Assembly: GCF_002015045.1 (NCBI RefSeq)
Contig: NZ_MUXX01000014.1
Coordinates: forward strand, 1 to 39,505
Length of the DNA stretch: 39,505 nucleotides
Direction: 5' to 3'
Source: Haemophilus paraphrohaemolyticus
Lineage (GTDB): Bacteria > Pseudomonadota > Gammaproteobacteria > Enterobacterales > Pasteurellaceae
Made by a program: the position numbers and the translations under genes. The notes under the pieces are model-generated. The model was not told the origin of the DNA. It searched no databases and saw only the letters and a program-made list of their open reading frames with translations. Of this stretch, positions 8,278 through 27,172 are shown piece by piece (positions within the stretch are counted from its first letter, which is position 1; every line of letters starts with the position of its first letter).

Positions 8278-8847
8278 TTATGCACCGAATTTAGCGATTA
8301 GAGTGCTTAAATTGCCTTCCAATGTCTCGCCAATCGCTTTGAATGACCAGCCATTTTCGTTGCGATACACTTCGCCAAAGATGATGGCAGTGTGGCTGCC
8401 GTTACCTTCGTCTTGCGGTTCAAAGCGTGCAATTTCTTCACCTGTTACATCATTGACTAAGCGAACGAATTCGTTTTGTACTTTTGAGAAGTTTTGATTA
8501 CGTTGTTTACCTTCGTAAATATCAACTGCAATCGCTACTTTTTGAATTTCTGCAGGTAGTGCGGTTAAGTCGATTAAAATGGTTTCATCATCGCCCTCGC
8601 CTTCACCCGTGCGGTCATCGCCTAATGTACGCGCTGCACCGTTTTCTGCAGATTTTTTCCCGAAATAAACCACATCTTTATCTGAACGTGTTTTACCGTC
8701 GGCATTTAATAAAAATGCGTGAGCATCTAAATCAAACGCTGCACCTGTGTCTGCAGTATCCCAACCTAAACCAACGCGTAATTTAGTTAAAGAGTTGTCT
8801 GTTTTGGTTAAATCTAAGGTTTCACCTTTGGTTAATACTAAAGCCAT
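8278..8847 (-). CDS. terD: TerD family protein (189 aa)
   Basis: It is a full-length single TerD domain. The N-terminus ALVLTKGETLDLTK, the block GLGWDTADTGAAFDLDAHAF (residues about 27-46) and the DDRTGEGEGDDETILIDL segment (calcium-binding acidic loops) are all present. TerD proteins bind calcium and are tied to tellurite resistance, stress response and phage resistance in the host ter operon. Here one stands alone as the first gene of the leftward phage operon, where lambda has N and cIII. The ribosome site AAGGAGTAATTT is strong. No other ter genes are nearby, which suggests a cargo gene. Confidence 0.93.
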   Translation of the reverse strand: MALVLTKGETLDLTKTDNSLTKLRVGLGWDTADTGAAFDLDAHAFLLNADGKTRSDKDVVYFGKKSAENGAARTLGDDRTGEGEGDDETILIDLTALPAEIQKVAIAVDIYEGKQRNQNFSKVQNEFVRLVNDVTGEEIARFEPQDEGNGSHTAIIFGEVYRNENGWSFKAIGETLEGNLSTLIAKFGA

Positions 8848-9745: not shown

Positions 9746-9766
9746 AAACCGCCATCGTGGCGGTTT
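9746..9766 (-). terminator. Terminator of the cI/rex-position operon
   Basis: AAACCGCCA-TCG-TGGCGGTTT is a perfect hairpin that begins a few bases after the stop of the 163-aa gene. The minus strand continues TTTTATTTTG. It may also stop the small rightward gene at 9586-9735. Confidence 0.8.
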
Positions 9767-9769
9767 AGG

Positions 9770-10261
9770 TTAGGAAAACTTACCTAAAAAAGAGTTCTTT
9801 GAATATTTCTCTTCAAAGGCATTATAAATATCAACTATACACTTTAAATAGGCTTGGTTGATATTTTTATACTGTCCTGCGTTCTGCTCCGAAGTTTTAG
9901 CATTTATACTCTCAATATCCACTGTTGCGTACCAGTGAAATTTGGAAAAGTGTTCGTAAATATTCTCCTGCAATATATTACGTTTTTCGTGCAAAATTTT
10001 TGTAATATGAATGGCAATATTTAATTTAGTAAGAAAGCAAGTGCTATAATAGTGAGTATCAGCTCTTTCTCTTCTGTCAGATAAGAAGAAATGAGAGGAG
10101 AGATTTTCCATTTCGCTGAGAATTTGCAATAAAGAATCAACCAAAACTTTGTCCTCAGCTCTTTTAGCAAATAGCCTAGATTGTCTTACGCCAACTATGG
10201 TGTATAACATTGCGCAAAGAGCGATACTATTCGAAGCATTAATAATATCATTCCAGTTCAC
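9770..10261 (-). CDS. Membrane-anchored protein of the rex-position operon (163 aa)
   Basis: One hydrophobic segment lies at residues about 7-25 (INASNSIALCAMLYTIVGV), and the rest is a long helical soluble domain with many Lys/Glu and several His/Tyr. No known catalytic motif is seen. The start overlaps the stop of the STAS-like gene by 14 nt, so the two are coupled. It occupies the place of lambda rexB, which also encodes a membrane protein. I infer a membrane effector or anchor for the ATPase/STAS pair. No family is recognised. Confidence 0.7.
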   Translation of the reverse strand: MNWNDIINASNSIALCAMLYTIVGVRQSRLFAKRAEDKVLVDSLLQILSEMENLSSHFFLSDRRERADTHYYSTCFLTKLNIAIHITKILHEKRNILQENIYEHFSKFHWYATVDIESINAKTSEQNAGQYKNINQAYLKCIVDIYNAFEEKYSKNSFLGKFS

Positions 10262-10595
10262 TATTATTTACCTTTAGCTCTTCTTCAGCATCTTGTAAGA
10301 TATTTTTAATTTGAATCTCATAAATAGGGAAATCACTAATTATTTCTAAACGCTCCCAGACATCTTTAAATGACATACCTTCATCGCGAATTAGACCGCC
10401 AAAGCTTTCATCAAGGAAAGACGAACCTACGGGAACAATACCATTAAAATCGACCTGGATTTTTTCATTTTCGCTATTTTGAAATGCATTTTTTAGTCTT
10501 TCTCGTCTAAACCGTTGTCCACTGAAGTTGCCGTCAGTTGGATATCTGCCAAATGGCACGGGAGAGAAGTCTGCAACCCTAATTTTTTCAATCAT
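10248..10595 (-). CDS. DUF4325 STAS-like domain protein (115 aa)
   Basis: It shows the DUF4325 signature throughout: FGRYPTDG at 15-22, SGQRFR at 25-30, IQVDFNGI at 46-53 and SSFLDESFGGL at 58-68. This fold resembles STAS anti-sigma-antagonist domains, which bind GHKL ATPases such as SpoIIAB/RsbW. Its upstream neighbour is such an ATPase, with only one base between stop and start. A switch pair is therefore a good inference: the ATPase would bind or modify the STAS-like protein. The cellular role is not established. Confidence 0.85.
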   Translation of the reverse strand: MIEKIRVADFSPVPFGRYPTDGNFSGQRFRRERLKNAFQNSENEKIQVDFNGIVPVGSSFLDESFGGLIRDEGMSFKDVWERLEIISDFPIYEIQIKNILQDAEEELKVNNSELE

Positions 10596-10596
10596 A

Positions 10597-11544
10597 TTAA
10601 TTGCCTTTTTCTGGTAAAATTAATGACCACACGATAAGTGTTCCTTTTATTTTGCATTGAGGAGAAGTTGCAATACAATTCTTTTTCTCATCACCTTGAC
10701 TATATTGATAAGAATAGATCACCTCATCAGTATAAATGGTTAGTCGCTCTTCCTCAACGAAATTTTGTATCACATTCTTCAAATCCTCGGAACCTTTCCC
10801 GCGTTTTCCTATACCATTATGATTAAATCTAGAATATCCTTTAGACATCAGCTCTTTCATTTTGTTAATTTTTTCTTGTGGGGCATTGTCATCGCTATCT
10901 GGGTAATAGGAGTTTAAGGCTCCGACACCTGCATCATAAATCAAGAAAACCATTCTATGAGCAGATGGACTATACCAACAACATTGCCACCAACGATTTC
11001 TTCTAAGAACTCTTTGCAAATAATCATTGCCAATGTATGCATGATGTTGAATGTTTAATAGAGCTTCGCTTATTGCCGTTAATAACACAATTTTTTGTTC
11101 CGCAGATATACCATCTATCTGAAAGATCATTTGGCTAGTGTTTATTTGAAGGGTTTCAATGGTCTCTTTACAGCCTGATTGATAATAATTACCGTCAATG
11201 ACGAGCTGAAGTATCTCATTTTCATTTTTTGCTTCTAAAGCTTTTTTTAATCCTGAGAGGATAATCCTAGCATAACCATCAGGATTGCTATTTTCTTCAG
11301 GGTAAATAATTGAGATTGCATTATGACGTTTACTTCTACACCTTACACTATGTACGGCAGAAAATAGAAGAAGAGTGCTTTCAGCATACGCCTCCTTAAT
11401 TCTAGATAAGTCAAGTATTATTCTTTTTCTTTGCCTAAAATATAAGTCCACCTCGTTAAGGAATGTAATGGTTTTTTCTCTATCTACGGAGGTACCACCG
11501 ATAGTGAATATTTCAGGTGCAATCAATCTAATTTGCTGAGCCAT
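10597..11544 (-). CDS. GHKL-type ATPase with N-terminal STAS-like region (315 aa)
   Basis: The C-terminal half has the GHKL (histidine-kinase-like) ATP site: N-box ISEALLNIQHH (E160, N164, H167/168), G1 box DAGVGA (204-209), a GIGKRGKGSEDL lid (244-255) and the closing GTLIVWSLILP (301-311). There is no phospho-acceptor His box or receiver domain, so it is closer to anti-sigma kinases than to sensor kinases. Residues 1-100 look like a STAS-like domain (RIILDLSRIKEAYAESTLLLF). First gene after cI in the same direction, 138 bp downstream with no terminator visible. Confidence 0.82.
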   Translation of the reverse strand: MAQQIRLIAPEIFTIGGTSVDREKTITFLNEVDLYFRQRKRIILDLSRIKEAYAESTLLLFSAVHSVRCRSKRHNAISIIYPEENSNPDGYARIILSGLKKALEAKNENEILQLVIDGNYYQSGCKETIETLQINTSQMIFQIDGISAEQKIVLLTAISEALLNIQHHAYIGNDYLQRVLRRNRWWQCCWYSPSAHRMVFLIYDAGVGALNSYYPDSDDNAPQEKINKMKELMSKGYSRFNHNGIGKRGKGSEDLKNVIQNFVEEERLTIYTDEVIYSYQYSQGDEKKNCIATSPQCKIKGTLIVWSLILPEKGN

Positions 11545-11682
11545 ATTGATATTCCATTCAATTACTACAATTCAAGCGACTCCTAAAAAATCCCCGCCTT
11601 CATCAAAAATTATCTCTTTCTACGATAGATTAGATATTACAAATAACTCCTATGCTCCACCGCTACGCCAATAATGCGGATG

Positions 11683-12351
11683 TTATAAATCTCTTGGATC
11701 AATTGGAAGAACTCGAACAAATTTCCCTATTACAATAGCTTTGTTAAATACATCTTCGGTAATATCAAATGGGTCATAGTTTTTATTATCCGATAATGCT
11801 CGATAAGTTCCGCCAGGAATTTTTTGAAGGCGTTTAATGTAAACTTCATTATCAATCGCAAAGATATAAATTCCTTCCCCGTAATAATTTCTCACGTTGG
11901 TATCAACGAATACCACATCGCCTTTATCAATGGTTGGGCTCATACTATCGGTTGGGATATTAATCATAAACAGTCCATCATCTGTTTTTCTACCAACAAT
12001 TTCTAATAAACCGTCTAATGAAAAATAAATAGCTTGAATAACATCTGGATACTCATTATTGATAATGCCACCAACACCGGCTTTAGCTTGTACATCTAAC
12101 AGCTCAATTTTAAAACGGTGAGCATCGCTTGGTGTCGTGCTGATAGACGAAATAATCAAAGCTTCTAGTTCAGGATCTGAATCAAGATAAAAAGATGGCA
12201 TACCATAATCTTGCTCAATACGTCTTGCGGCTCTTTCGCCAAAGGTTGCACCTTTTCTTAACTGTGAAATAAAACTTCTATCTTTTTTCGGGATAGATTG
12301 ACCTTCAAACCATTTCTCTAGGTTTTTCAAACGAATTTCTGACTTGTCCAT
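11683..12351 (-). CDS. cI: CI-type phage repressor (S24/LexA family, 222 aa)
   Basis: The N-terminal ~60 residues are a helix-turn-helix region (SFISQLRKGATFGERAARRIEQ). The C-terminal half is a LexA-like autoprotease: cleavage site Ala91-Gly92, catalytic Ser136 in TDSMSP and Lys173 in VYIKRLQ. It should therefore be cleaved when RecA is activated, which would make the prophage inducible by DNA damage. It binds the TTTAGT-N4-ACTAAA sites of oR and oL. It is transcribed leftward and very likely shares its transcript with the three genes downstream. Confidence 0.93.
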   Translation of the reverse strand: MDKSEIRLKNLEKWFEGQSIPKKDRSFISQLRKGATFGERAARRIEQDYGMPSFYLDSDPELEALIISSISTTPSDAHRFKIELLDVQAKAGVGGIINNEYPDVIQAIYFSLDGLLEIVGRKTDDGLFMINIPTDSMSPTIDKGDVVFVDTNVRNYYGEGIYIFAIDNEVYIKRLQKIPGGTYRALSDNKNYDPFDITEDVFNKAIVIGKFVRVLPIDPRDL

Positions 12352-14791: not shown

Positions 14792-15630
14792 ACCCTGAAG
14801 AAAAATTCCAAGAGGAACTCAAAAACCTTGAGAGCCATTTGCAAGCAGCATTGCAAGGTTTCAAGCCGTTAGATGGCTGTGTGACATCGGAATCGGTGGC
14901 AAGCTGTGAGCATCACGGTAATTATCGCCAATGGGTACGCCGTTTTGATGTGATTGAACGGACGACCAGAACCGACTGCCCGCAATGCCTGCAAGGCGAG
15001 ATTGCTCGGTTAAAACAGCGTGAAGCGGAGCGGAAAGCACGGATGCAAATGGGCTTGATTGCTGATTTGAAATATCACTCTGGCGTGCCAAAACGTTTTG
15101 AGCAAGCGAGCTTTGAGAACTACGAGCAGACGGAGGCGAATGCTAAAGCAAAACGATTCTGCCAAGCCTATGCGAACAAGTGGCTAGAGCGTAAGGCGAA
15201 AGGTGGTGGGCTGATTTTGTGCGGTAAACCTGGTACGGGTAAGAACCATTTAGCTTGTGCGATTATCAATCACGTAATCGAGCAATACCAAGACGAAGCC
15301 TTGCTTACCACGGCGTTACGCATTGCCCGTAAAGTGAAATCCTCGTGGAACAAAAACGCAGAAGAGAGCGAAGAGCAAGTGATGCGAACCTACATTGCTC
15401 CTAATTTGCTGGTAATTGATGAAATTGGGGTGCAGTTTGGGAGCGAAGCGGAAAAAATCATTTTGTTTGAAATTATTAACGAGCGTTACGAAGCGATGAA
15501 ACCGACGATTTTAATCAGCAACCTATCACAACAAGAACTGGGGGCGTATGTGGGCGAGCGAATTGTTGACCGTATGCGAGAAGGTGGCGGTGCGATGATT
15601 GCGTTTGATTGGGAGAGTTACAGAAGATGA
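14788..15630 (+). CDS. DnaC-like helicase loader ATPase (280 aa)
   Basis: Walker A is GKPGTGKN at 146-153. The Asn in place of Ser/Thr is also present in E. coli DnaC. Walker B is LLVIDEIG at 207-214, and the sensor/arginine region ends RIVDRMREGG. An N-terminal Cys pair in TDCPQC (63-67) and CEHHG (40-44) may hold zinc. It should load the host DnaB helicase at the origin in the preceding gene. It is the functional counterpart of lambda P, as in DnaC-type phages. Confidence 0.9.
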   Translation: MNPEEKFQEELKNLESHLQAALQGFKPLDGCVTSESVASCEHHGNYRQWVRRFDVIERTTRTDCPQCLQGEIARLKQREAERKARMQMGLIADLKYHSGVPKRFEQASFENYEQTEANAKAKRFCQAYANKWLERKAKGGGLILCGKPGTGKNHLACAIINHVIEQYQDEALLTTALRIARKVKSSWNKNAEESEEQVMRTYIAPNLLVIDEIGVQFGSEAEKIILFEIINERYEAMKPTILISNLSQQELGAYVGERIVDRMREGGGAMIAFDWESYRR

Positions 15631-16184
15631 CCGAGCAACAATTTGACCGCGATACGTGGGAAACGCCTCAATACTTAACCCAGTGGGTGGGTAAACGTTG
15701 GCATTGCAGTATGGACGGCTGTGCTACTTTGCAAAATAAAAAATTCGGGCATTGGATTGGTACGAAATCTGGCGAAGATCGGGATTATTTGAACGTTGCA
15801 ACGGATTTTCTAGCCGATGGTTTGCCAGAGTTTTTAAGTGATTGGGGGAGCGGCTCACATAGCATTTTCGTCAATCCCCCTTACTCCGATGTTACGCCAT
15901 TTCTGCAGCAGGCAAAACGCTTGCGTGATGCAGGGCATTTAGTGGTGATGTTACTTAACAACGACAAATCTACGCAGTGGTATCAGCAATGCGTTCACGG
16001 TGTGGCAAATGAGGTGATTGATCTTGTGGGTGGTCGCATAGCGTTTATTAACCCTGTTACGGGCAAGGAAATCAAGGGAAACAGTAAAGGACAGATGATT
16101 GTGGTGTTCGATCCAACAATGGAAGATTTTGTGCAGCGGTCGGTAAGTCTGGATTTTGTGAAGAAGGTAGGTGGTTATGAGTAA
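15627..16184 (+). CDS. Phage Dam-type DNA N6-adenine methyltransferase (185 aa)
   Basis: ATG at 15627 overlaps the loader stop. An upstream TTG in frame was rejected. The protein has WETPQYL near the N-terminus and the catalytic NPPYS motif at 83-87 with the VNPPYSDVTPFLQQA context of phage Dam proteins. The C-terminus GGRIAFINPVTG follows family pattern. It would methylate adenine in the phage DNA, protecting it from restriction or affecting repair. Confidence 0.88.
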   Translation: MTEQQFDRDTWETPQYLTQWVGKRWHCSMDGCATLQNKKFGHWIGTKSGEDRDYLNVATDFLADGLPEFLSDWGSGSHSIFVNPPYSDVTPFLQQAKRLRDAGHLVVMLLNNDKSTQWYQQCVHGVANEVIDLVGGRIAFINPVTGKEIKGNSKGQMIVVFDPTMEDFVQRSVSLDFVKKVGGYE

Positions 16185-20958: not shown

Positions 20959-21474
20959 ATGCAATTAGCTAATCCAGAAAACTTTAAGCGATTTGTACAA
21001 AATAAAGATGCAAAAACGATTACCACATCAGAAATGGTAGCAAAAGTTTTTGGTAAATATCATCATCACGTTATGCGTGATATTCGTGAAATTTTAGAGG
21101 CAGGAGATGATGAATTTAACCGAACCAATTTTGGTTTGGTTGAATATATCGACAAAAAAGGCGAAAAACGTCCAATGTTCGAGATGACAAAAGACGGTTT
21201 TATGTTGCTAGTTATGGGATATAAGACCAAAAAAGCAATGGCAATTAAAATTGCATACATCAAAGCCTTTAATTTTATGCAAGAGCAGTTAGTTCAAAGC
21301 GGAATGACACTCCTTGAACAATATTACCAAGTGCTTGGCGAATATCAGTCAGATAAACGTTTTGCGAGTTTATGCGGTGCTGGCTTAAGTCAATGGAAAG
21401 GTAAAAAGCCATTGCTTGAAGGAACGCTAAGCGTTTTTGAAGATAAACTGCAGATTGAACTGCCGATTAAGTAA
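20959..21474 (+). CDS. Rha-family regulator in the late region (171 aa)
   Basis: The Rha domain occupies residues about 15-105 (AKTITTSEMVAKVFGKYHHH, then NFGLVEYIDKKGEKRPMFEM). The C-terminal 50 residues, with GAGLSQWKGKKP and a lysine-rich end, match the tail of the second late Rha protein (26633-27172). It is next to the terminase small subunit, behind a terminator. Rha proteins act as phage regulators, but a role here is not shown. The pair may be cargo genes expressed from their own signals. Confidence 0.85.
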   Translation: MQLANPENFKRFVQNKDAKTITTSEMVAKVFGKYHHHVMRDIREILEAGDDEFNRTNFGLVEYIDKKGEKRPMFEMTKDGFMLLVMGYKTKKAMAIKIAYIKAFNFMQEQLVQSGMTLLEQYYQVLGEYQSDKRFASLCGAGLSQWKGKKPLLEGTLSVFEDKLQIELPIK

Positions 21475-23353: not shown

Positions 23354-24742
23354 ATGTCAGTTCATCTTCCCACCGCTGAAATGGTGGAGTTAACCAAGAA
23401 AACCAAAATCATTGATGATTTACTCGGTGGCACGGCAACAATGCGAAAAGCCGCACAAGCCTACCTTTTTCAAATGGAAATGGAAGAGCCCGATAGTTAC
23501 CGCAAACGCCTTGAGCGTTCAACCCTTTATCCTGCCTTGTCGGAAACCCTTTCGCAAATGACAGGTCGTGTATTCTTCAACCCGATTGATGTTGCCGATG
23601 TGACAGAAACAGTGCGAGCCCTTTTTGATGATGTGGATTTAGTAGGCAATAACCTTGATGTGTTTGCCTCCCGCTGGTTTTATTCCGCCTTGGCATATGG
23701 TTGCTCTTTTGCTTTGATTGATTTCACGCGTGTTGAAGCGGTGAAAAGCCGTGCGGAAGAGAAAGCCTTAAATGCCCGTCCTTATTGGGTGCATATTAAA
23801 CCGCATCAAGTACTGGGAATGAAAACCGCACGAGTAAATGGTAAACAAGCAATTACTCAATTTCGCTATGTTGTCAATGAACAGGTTGAGGATGGCGAAT
23901 TTGGTGTAAAAACCGTGAAATACGTTTATGTGTATGAAATCGGCAAAGTGCGGAAATTTAGCGAAGCAGAGGGTGAATTTCGTTTTGAATCGGAATTGCA
24001 ACTGACGGCACAAAATCGACCGCTTGATTTTGTGCCTGTCGTGCCATTTATCACCAAGCGTAACGAACTCACTAATGCCATTGAGCCGCCTTTAATGGAG
24101 TTGGCGTATTTGAATGTAAAACACTGGCAAAGCCAATCAGATCAGGACAACATTACTAACATTGCTCGCGTACCGTTGTTAGCGATTTATTCCAATGATG
24201 AAGTGAAACAGCTTGCTATTGGTGGCAGTGCGGTTCATCTTCCAACGGGTAGCTCAATGCAATTTGTTGAACATTCAGGACAAGCCATTGCTTCAGGTGT
24301 GGAAAGCCTCAAAGACTTAGAAGAGCAAATGAAAACCGCAGGGGCGAAGTTGCTTACCAAAACCGCCTTAGCAATGACTGACAGCCAAGCCCGCGATGAA
24401 GCAGGCAAAGAAATTTCCCAATTGCGATTGCTTGCTAATCGTTTTGAAGATGCGATTGATTTAGCCTTGGAATATACAGGGCATTGGCTTGGCATTGCCA
24501 AAGAGCACGTGGGTAACGTGCAGATTTCGGGCAACATTGAAAACGACCTTGACCCTTCTGCTTCAATGGCAAGCGTGATTCAGTTGCGTAATGCAGGCGT
24601 GATTTCGAATCAATCCACCTTTGACGAAGCCAAACGCCGCGGCTTATTGGCAGACGGCTTAGAATGGGACACAGAGCAAGAACGCCTGCAATCGGAGGGA
24701 ATGCATTTTGACCTCGAAGAAACATCAGAAAAAAACGCTTAG
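23354..24742 (+). CDS. Portal protein, DUF4055 family (462 aa)
   Basis: The DUF4055 portal family is seen across the protein: YRKRLERSTLYPALSETLSQ at the N-terminus, FASRWFYSALAYGCSFALID in the wing region, LAYLNVKHWQSQSDQDNITN and the long coil near the end. The portal forms the dodecameric DNA gate at one capsid vertex. It precedes the MuF-type gene and overlaps its start by 35 bp. Confidence 0.88.
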   Translation: MSVHLPTAEMVELTKKTKIIDDLLGGTATMRKAAQAYLFQMEMEEPDSYRKRLERSTLYPALSETLSQMTGRVFFNPIDVADVTETVRALFDDVDLVGNNLDVFASRWFYSALAYGCSFALIDFTRVEAVKSRAEEKALNARPYWVHIKPHQVLGMKTARVNGKQAITQFRYVVNEQVEDGEFGVKTVKYVYVYEIGKVRKFSEAEGEFRFESELQLTAQNRPLDFVPVVPFITKRNELTNAIEPPLMELAYLNVKHWQSQSDQDNITNIARVPLLAIYSNDEVKQLAIGGSAVHLPTGSSMQFVEHSGQAIASGVESLKDLEEQMKTAGAKLLTKTALAMTDSQARDEAGKEISQLRLLANRFEDAIDLALEYTGHWLGIAKEHVGNVQISGNIENDLDPSASMASVIQLRNAGVISNQSTFDEAKRRGLLADGLEWDTEQERLQSEGMHFDLEETSEKNA

Positions 24743-26288
24743 ACAACGTATTGCCCATGCTTTAACTGACCGCAAAATCTTGTATTTTCGCTATGATGCT
24801 CACTTGCGACAACAGGTGTACAAGCGGTTAAATGCACTGCAAAAATTGCTGATTAACCGCATCAGTGCTATCGGTGTTGAAGCTTTGCCCGCGAAAAAAC
24901 TGGATAAACTGCTCACCGAACTGCAAACAGAGATTGCAAAAACTTACCAAGAAACGACCGCTTACACGCAAGACGAGTTAAGCGGTTTTTTATCGCTTGA
25001 AGCAGCCAAAATCAGCCAGCTTTATAACGATGAAATCGGCTTTGATTTGTTTAATGATGTACCAAAAGAACGGATTAAAGCGATTAAAAACGTTGCTGTG
25101 ATTGAAGGGCAACCGTTAGAAGCATGGTGGAATAAACAGCGTGCCGATTTAGCCTTTAAATTTGAGGGGATTATCCGCTCTGGTGTAGCAGAAGGCAAAC
25201 AAAACGGACAACTTGCCACTGAAGTGCGTGAGTTAATGAGCGTTAGCCGTCGTACCGCAGATACTTTAGTCATTACCTCTGTGGCAAAAGTGGCTGACAC
25301 TGCCCACGAAGCCTTGCGTGATGCCAATCTTGATATTCTGCAAGGCGAAGAGCATCTTTCTACCCTTGATATGCGAACTTCTACCGTTTGCCAAGTGCGT
25401 GATGGCAAGCAATGGGATTTAGGCAAAAAGCCAATCGGACATAACATTCCCTACAAGCGCCCACCGTTGCACCCACGTTGTCGTAGCATTCTTCAGCTTG
25501 TGACCAAAAGCTGGGAAGAATTAGGCGTGCAAGGTATGCAAGAAATGCCCACCAGCACCCGTGCCTCAATGGACGGTCCAGTTGATGAGCGGGTTAACTA
25601 TGAGAGTTGGCTCAACAGTAAAACAGCTGAAGAGAAAGAGCAGATTCTGGGTAAAGGTAAAGCCGATTTATGGCAACGTGGTGTAATTACTTTCTCGGAT
25701 ATGTTAGACCAATCTGGCAGGGCGTTGACGTTGAGGGATTTACAAAAATCCTATACGCAATCTTGGATAGCGGAAGATATTTATCAACGTATTTCAGAAG
25801 AAGTAAAAAACAGTCTTAAAATTCAGGCATTTAAAGCCGCTTATAACATTACTCATCACGAGCTTGTTGCAATGAAAGCCTACACGAGCGAGCTTTATTG
25901 GGATTTAAATTACAATATGCGTAATGATAATCTTACACTAACCGATAAGCGGTTTATTGCTGTGGTAAATCAAGGGTTGGACAAAGTGCCTGCTTATAAC
26001 GGTATGACTTATCGCGATACGACTTTGCCAGATGAGGTATTAGAAAAATATCAGATAGGTAAAATAGTCACAGAAAAAGCTTTTACGAGTTCAAGCATTG
26101 ATAATAGTTTATCAACTTTTAAAGGTAATGTTCGATTTATTATTCAAAGTAAGAATGGTAAAATAATCGAAGATATTAGTGATTATCCTGATGAACGAGA
26201 AGTTTTATTTAAAGATAGAACTAAGTTCTTTATAAAAGATCGCTATATGAATGGTAATGTTACCGTAATTGAAGCGAGGGAATTATAA
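24708..26288 (+). CDS. MuF/SPP1-gp7-type head protein fused to an ADP-ribosyltransferase domain (526 aa)
   Basis: Start is TTG at 24708 behind GGAGGGA; no early ATG exists. Residues about 130-265 are the MuF/gp7 minor head protein (STLDMRTSTVCQVRDGKQW then YKRPPLHPRCRSILQ). Residues about 380-526 carry the R-S-E signature of ADP-ribosyltransferases: Arg436 in YRDTT, Phe-Thr-Ser-Ser-Ser at 459-463, and the E-x-E at 496-498. The head domain attaches to the portal inside the capsid, so the toxin domain is probably packaged and injected. The target of ADP-ribosylation cannot be read from sequence. Confidence 0.88.
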   Translation: MTSKKHQKKTLRQRIAHALTDRKILYFRYDAHLRQQVYKRLNALQKLLINRISAIGVEALPAKKLDKLLTELQTEIAKTYQETTAYTQDELSGFLSLEAAKISQLYNDEIGFDLFNDVPKERIKAIKNVAVIEGQPLEAWWNKQRADLAFKFEGIIRSGVAEGKQNGQLATEVRELMSVSRRTADTLVITSVAKVADTAHEALRDANLDILQGEEHLSTLDMRTSTVCQVRDGKQWDLGKKPIGHNIPYKRPPLHPRCRSILQLVTKSWEELGVQGMQEMPTSTRASMDGPVDERVNYESWLNSKTAEEKEQILGKGKADLWQRGVITFSDMLDQSGRALTLRDLQKSYTQSWIAEDIYQRISEEVKNSLKIQAFKAAYNITHHELVAMKAYTSELYWDLNYNMRNDNLTLTDKRFIAVVNQGLDKVPAYNGMTYRDTTLPDEVLEKYQIGKIVTEKAFTSSSIDNSLSTFKGNVRFIIQSKNGKIIEDISDYPDEREVLFKDRTKFFIKDRYMNGNVTVIEAREL

Positions 26289-26632: not shown

Positions 26633-27172
26633 ATGATGAACTTACAAAAAATTGAAAACTTTAACCAATTTGTCCAAGTTAAAGGCAACAAAATTATTAC
26701 TGATATTTTAACCATTGCACGCGTGTTTGGTAAACGTCATACGGAAGTATTGCGTGCGATCAGAAACTTGCATTTACCCAATGAATTTAGCCAACGCAAT
26801 TTTGCGTCGGCTAATTATTTTGATAAACAAGGTAAATCTCGTTTAATGTACGAAGTCACGAAAAACGGCTTTATGTTCCTTGTAATGGGCTTTAACGGGC
26901 AAAAAGCGGATGCGTTGAAAGTGGCATTTATTGAAGCCTTTGACTACCTCATTACTCAAGCCAATAAATCAAGCTATCAACTTTTGGAAGAATATCAGCA
27001 ACTTTGCCTGAATAAAAGAATGGAAGAAGAATTTGCAAGCTATTGCGGAAAAGGCTTAAATCGCTGGAAAGGGAAAAAGCCGAATTTGCAGCATAAAATA
27101 CAATCTTTGGAAGATAAAATCCAAATTAACTTGAATCTAATGATTGATGAAAATTTGTTAACGAATAAATAA
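26633..27172 (+). CDS. Second late Rha-family regulator (179 aa)
   Basis: The Rha domain runs from about residue 10 to 105 (IARVFGKRHTEVLRAIRNLH, then SANYFDKQGKSRLMYEVTKN). The C-terminal tail (CGKGLNRWKGKKPNLQ, then EDKIQINLNL) matches that of the gene at 20959-21474 but not the one at 13263. An ATG three bases downstream is nearly equal as a start. It lies between terminators, between the ART partner and the scaffold, where structural genes are normally continuous. This is a mobile cargo-like position. Confidence 0.85.
   Translation: MMNLQKIENFNQFVQVKGNKIITDILTIARVFGKRHTEVLRAIRNLHLPNEFSQRNFASANYFDKQGKSRLMYEVTKNGFMFLVMGFNGQKADALKVAFIEAFDYLITQANKSSYQLLEEYQQLCLNKRMEEEFASYCGKGLNRWKGKKPNLQHKIQSLEDKIQINLNLMIDENLLTNK

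Follow-up and report, generated by a model that had tools for sequence, protein, structure and literature searches.

A kinase, STAS-like switch and membrane protein cassette in a Haemophilus prophage: a probable membrane-output relative of VapKSC

VapKSC comprises a kinase, a STAS antitoxin, and the VapC toxin; presented as a toxin-antitoxin system, it gives about 2-log protection against one phage (Chambers et al. 2026, EMBO J; PMC13373217). The same paper describes CapK and CapS as a single-stranded DNA (ssDNA)-activated kinase and its repressor, with CapK responding to DNA damage and restriction-modification genes lying near CapKS in 88 of 443. The STAS-domain aromatic for ssDNA is F54 in VapK and W68 in CapK (PMC13373217). 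A relative of these systems probably lies in a prophage of Haemophilus paraphrohaemolyticus. The window, meaning the whole 39,505-nucleotide stretch of DNA that was analysed (contig NZ_MUXX01000014.1), contains three adjacent genes: gene 1, for a probable STAS-GHKL kinase; gene 2, for a STAS-like switch protein of the DUF4325 family; and gene 3, for a membrane protein. Together they form a conserved portable cassette, one more general than a single-sequence reading could reveal. The trio probably serves defence or exclusion, and we put at roughly 0.55 the probability that it operates in the manner of VapKSC but ends in another output.

Layout and spread of the cassette

The trio occupies 1.8 kb of the minus strand. 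Gene 1 (10597..11544; 315 amino acids) is separated by a single base from gene 2 (10248..10595; 115 amino acids), which in turn overlaps gene 3 (9770..10261; 163 amino acids, GTG start) by 14 nucleotides. A terminator-like hairpin on the same strand (9746..9766), with a 9-pair stem and a T-rich tail, closes the set. The chosen gene starts agree with those of the closest relatives in family alignments. Upstream, and in the same direction, lies an S24-type (cI-like) repressor (11683..12351, minus strand; PF00717, E 6.1e-19). The 138-bp gap between its stop and gene 1 (11545..11682) holds no terminator-like or promoter-like match on the minus strand in a consensus scan, which for promoters gave fewer matches in the region than in shuffled sequence. 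An earlier, sequence-only reading of this DNA had proposed the one-base gap, the overlap, a single-span third protein, and the terminator, all borne out by coordinates, hydrophobicity, and the hairpin scan; its terminator-free gap after cI is likewise confirmed.

Single-sequence searches with the window's proteins returned few relatives (one phage; one plasmid; the query plus three relatives; otherwise none). The family was opened by profiles incorporating Marinobacter phage AS1 and a Pasteurella multocida plasmid with phage genes, each of which carries the trio after a repressor-type gene. A scan with the motif SFL[ED]E[AV]FG found 217 relatives among viral contigs; counts for viral loci rest on the best 80 of these, with profiles built from other loci and E < 0.1. 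The kinase stands just upstream of gene 2 in 76 of the 80 and the gene-3 family just downstream in 73. Both partners are present in 70, and the kinase sequences number 59 distinct forms. In three of the four loci that lack the kinase (L117, L128, and L140), the available DNA begins no more than about 500 bases from gene 2; this is not so in L088. Of the seven loci without a gene-3 match, L085, L133, and L140 have a downstream frame that includes a hydrophobic segment, L082 has a frame that does not, and L095, L097, and L098 have no frame there.

Selected independently of gene 2, matches to the gene-3 profile occur in 10 of 369 gammaproteobacterial genomes. Nine of the ten adjoin a match to PF14213 (DUF4325), including one in a genome (G003) that had contributed sequence to the profile; the tenth, a partial match in G067 (E 5.7e-4), adjoins none. 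Co-occurrence elsewhere, a check on the sequence-only reading set beforehand, was found for the three genes in the viral set and for genes 2 and 3 in the gammaproteobacterial set. All 113 gene-3 matches in a further set come directly after a DUF4325 gene, but those loci had been selected via genes 1 or 2.

Plasmid copies occur in Vibrio alfacsensis, V. scophthalmi, Novosphingobium, Leptospira, and Acinetobacter, and a sixth plasmid match (H11) in Pseudomonas; the third genes of the V. scophthalmi and Leptospira copies are not recognised by the gene-3 profile. In an Acinetobacter wuhouensis plasmid, an IS3-type element splits the trio's kinase frame (L160, 3617-5990). The trio is also present in a Kiritimatiellota metagenome-assembled genome (L007). 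One viral trio has no near match among E. coli genomes.

The G+C content of the trio is 0.347, against 0.418 for the whole window, and measurements on 46 viral loci put it below that of the flanks in every one (mean difference −0.10). A constant place behind a repressor was considered and rejected, since Peptidase_S24 appears in just 6 of 40 immediate upstream genes from other viral contigs (40 of the 55 listed genes were scanned). The position of lambda rexAB, to which the trio had at first been assigned, therefore describes the window and is one of several positions. Low G+C content, plasmid copies, and varied phage positions together mark the trio as cargo.

The three proteins, and the kinship of kinase and switch to VapKSC

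Taken singly, gene 1 gives a weak Pfam match to HATPase_c_2 (E 0.0072, under the curated cut-off), which is matched at E <= 1 by 14 of 21 kinase family members; its GHKL assignment rests instead on the family alignment and the structure model. The GHKL residues N164, H168, D204, G206, G249, and G251 are invariant in 60 of 60 aligned kinases, in keeping with the intact N-box read from the window's protein; N-box conservation, another check set for the sequence-only reading, is thus upheld. In the structure model, the solved folds nearest to the kinase domain are those of STAS-protein kinases (SpoIIAB, RsbW, and SiaB type), in a comparison that barely covered the N-terminal part. That part is a probable STAS domain, judging from the predicted order of strands and helices and from an hhalign match to the VapK-like kinase of a genome locus, L052. 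Neither the Pfam scan nor the model, in which the first predicted strand starts at residue 4, shows a helix-turn-helix at the N-terminus. Most of the distant kinase relatives (e.g., L002, L048, and L070) have a long basic N-terminal extension, rich in Lys and Arg, ahead of the first strand; the window's kinase has none. Among PHROGs, gene 1 matches phrog_3364 (function unknown; E 1.8e-35). NCBIfam gave zero matches for the trio proteins, and PADLOC-DB 2.0.0 no significant model (gene 1 comes closest, with PDC-S57 at E 0.014; genes 2 and 3 match nothing there).

Gene 2 belongs to PF14213 (E 1.1e-12; 47.8 bits against a cut-off of 23), with a match spanning residues 25-87, and no helix-turn-helix was found in the Pfam scan of its 115 residues. 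The candidate phosphosite is G57-S58-S59-F60. Position 58 is Ser in 79 of the 80 viral loci, selected with a motif that fixes S59 and leaves S58 free. Gene 2 also matches the C-terminal end of phrog_5816 (function unknown; E 4.3e-14). Single-gene fusions of this type, mostly of about 350 residues, share the DUF4325 domain, which there is C-terminal in a longer protein; unlike gene 2, 26 of 27 such long frames (at least 160 residues) have no Ser or Thr at either switch position. This suggests that the switch serine mostly accompanies a separate kinase gene. The remaining three of the 30 DUF4325 loci read comprise one stand-alone frame, also without Ser or Thr, and two trio-type loci outside the pattern used.

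Kinship to VapKSC emerges for both kinase and switch. Against 177,635 PDB sequences, the gene-2 profile gave two matches at E <= 10. One is a STAS protein (E 0.1); the other, covering 66 profile positions, is VapS of Escherichia (9z7o; E 0.36). An earlier three-sequence profile had found the PDB STAS protein and missed VapS. A VapS fragment matches two genome loci, L052 and L053 (E 2.8e-8 and 7.3e-4), whose VapS-like proteins are DUF4325 proteins, both passing that family's cut-off at 50.3 bits. These loci (L052, 7336-9114; L053, 1-1202, its kinase cut by the contig start) are VapKSC-like, and by eye the frames behind their VapS-like genes look PIN-like. The alignment of the trio kinase profile with the L052 kinase spans 232 columns and takes in the STAS part (hhalign E 6.6e-10). 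Ser66 of the 9z7o chain, taken as the VapS phosphoserine S48 once an 18-residue tag is allowed for, falls opposite S58 of gene 2 in the alignment, and the L052 protein has its serine at the same place.

Gene 3 matches no Pfam family. The gene-3 family has low identity, yet its members share a common plan: a hydrophobic N-terminal segment, a basic stretch, a helical domain, and a near-invariant threonine (T113). In the window's protein the hydrophobic segment is single and near the N-terminus, and the model (predicted local distance difference test, pLDDT, 93.4) shows one long helix continuing into a bundle. The mean number of Arg plus Lys is 4.5 over the first 15 residues beyond the segment, as against 0.5 over the 12 or fewer before it, and 55 of 56 have more after than before. 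This excess predicts that the bundle lies on the cytosolic side of the membrane, the side on which genes 1 and 2 act. Gene 3 is thus probably a cytosol-facing helical bundle held by one membrane helix.

Possible modes of action

A VapKSC-like cycle with a membrane output might run as follows. At rest, the DUF4325 protein would be bound to the membrane-anchored bundle, keeping it inactive. Infection or DNA stress would lead the STAS-GHKL kinase to phosphorylate the DUF4325 protein within G-S-S-F, a site suggested by homology. The phosphorylated protein would release the membrane protein, which, perhaps assembling in the inner membrane, would halt the cell or block the incoming phage. In the prophage the trio is probably co-expressed with the repressor, so that the lysogen would be armed against other phages. 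In its fullest form the proposal is tentative, with slightly less than even odds: a widespread antiphage system without a name, sister to VapKSC but with a membrane output, in which phosphorylation by the kinase frees a membrane effector from its DUF4325 inhibitor. The system would occur in Proteobacteria, on prophages, plasmids, and chromosomes alike, and in one or more Kiritimatiellota genomes; a Leptospira plasmid probably carries a further copy. The computed support covers the architecture, conservation of the unit, kinship of the kinase to VapK and of the switch to VapS, likely topology, and spread among phages and plasmids.

Several observations weigh against this proposal. The individual matches to VapS are weak (E 0.36; hhalign probability 51.5 percent), and the position aligned with VapS S48 is Pro in 4 of 20 members of one alignment (A6). 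Foldseek ranks HSP90 and GyrB highest for gene 1. Kinase position 51 or 53 is the probable counterpart, through the L052 alignment, of the ssDNA contact F54 of VapK, and Tyr or Phe occurs at either in 16 of 60 kinases (eight commonest residues counted); with the aromatic so poorly kept, the ssDNA signal may not carry over to the trio kinase. Gene 3 has no informative fold match (Foldseek, none at E <= 0.001; VIA-align rows, generic bundles), and its identity as a known pore-former or a known sensor found no support in these searches. Finally, defence families among 145 proteins around the trio show no clear excess in PADLOC over 118 proteins around control DUF4325 loci without the trio, in a comparison that lists families, not proteins hit, and leaves proteins above 900 or below 110 amino acids out of both sets. 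The control loci are also rich in PADLOC matches, Gabija and SoFic models included, leaving enrichment of the trio in defence islands unsupported. Two chromosomal trios do adjoin defence genes, one lying directly behind a type I restriction gene (L006) and the other behind PDC-M30B/M41B-like and PD-T4-4_A-like genes (L049).

Gene 3 may instead be a sensor or anchor that signals a membrane event (phage injection or loss of potential) to the other two proteins, with an unlinked host target as the output. This is unlikely, though worth keeping in view. Alternatively, the switch may sense DNA damage in the lysogen and tune induction or repressor-linked immunity. The DNA-damage response of CapK (PMC13373217) would suit such a prophage regulator, as would the place of the trio directly after the repressor in the window, phage AS1, and the P. 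multocida phage-like plasmid. However, the scarcity of Peptidase_S24 upstream on other viral contigs, plasmid copies with no such repressor alongside in the regions listed, and the lack of any DNA-binding domain in the trio proteins (Pfam, PADLOC, PHROGs, and NCBIfam scans) make this role quite improbable. Just as improbable is a toxin-antitoxin-like maintenance module without special antiphage role: some plasmid trios have annotated PemK/MazF, RelE/HigA, or nucleotidyltransferase/HepT genes a few kb away or less, and VapKSC itself bears the toxin-antitoxin label (PMC13373217), but the presence of the cassette on at least 217 viral contigs agrees equally well or better with defence, and the idea overlaps the favoured explanation.

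If the VapKSC-like cycle is correct, the kinase/STAS switch known from sporulation, CapKS, and VapKSC would be a general trigger with varied outputs: a repressor, an RNase, or a membrane protein. Stand-alone DUF4325 proteins would gain a role. The apparent lack of the probable ssDNA residue of its relatives also raises the question of what such kinases can sense. A cassette so common (217 viral contigs with one short motif) and compact is directly testable.

Prophage setting and comparison with known systems

The surrounding prophage has other features of interest. The window is a complete virus record, and a comparison of its bases 14000-38900 with 50,697 phage records gave no near match. About 0.9 kb past the trio terminator, on the same strand, lies a gene for a full-length TerD-domain protein (8278-8847, minus strand; PF02342, E 4.1e-65), an unusual-looking phage cargo. 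On the plus strand are a phage Dam-type adenine methylase (15609-16184; PF05869, E 6.4e-28); two separate Rha/ORF11CD3-type regulatory proteins within the structural-gene region (20959-21474 and 26633-27172; PF09669, E 2.3e-30 and 3e-24); and a Mu F-like head protein (24708-26288) with matches in its C-terminal part to families of ADP-ribosyltransferases (PF01129, E 5.6e-11; PF03496, E 4.8e-07).

Lambda RexAB, encoded after the repressor, has one membrane component and a proposed role in exclusion. The trio shares these three features, the last as a proposal, but has three genes, including a kinase. No Rex-named family is among the Pfam and PHROGs matches of the trio proteins; direct comparison with RexA or RexB was not made.

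SpoIIAB/SpoIIAA, RsbW/RsbV, and SiaB/SiaC are chromosomal sigma-factor or signalling circuits. Like the trio, each pairs a GHKL serine/threonine kinase with a STAS partner, and they provide the nearest solved kinase-domain folds. Unlike in the trio, their kinases stand alone without an N-terminal domain, and the sets include no membrane protein.

The three-gene form was not recognised in open-access literature on DUF4325, STAS-like domains, GHKL/STAS, VapKSC, and partner-switching (preprints were outside the search). The sequence-only reading could match the trio to no named system; close named relatives, VapKSC and CapKS, now exist (PMC13373217). In CapK and CapS, as would be the case in the trio, a GHKL kinase acts on a STAS protein, and their frequent restriction-modification neighbours are matched by the trio behind the type I restriction gene. 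CapKS differs in having a helix-turn-helix before the kinase, a winged helix-turn-helix after the STAS domain, and a separate immune operon behind. VapKSC is closer: the order is the same (kinase, STAS-type protein, third protein), the kinase combines STAS and GHKL domains without a helix-turn-helix, and the switch is a DUF4325-family protein with a serine at the aligned site. However, its third gene encodes the PIN-domain VapC where the trio has a membrane-anchored helical bundle, and the trio seems not to conserve the probable ssDNA aromatic. With neither the PIN toxin of VapKSC nor the helix-turn-helix and winged helix-turn-helix of CapKS, the trio belongs to neither system and is placed as a variant of the GHKL kinase-STAS switch operons.
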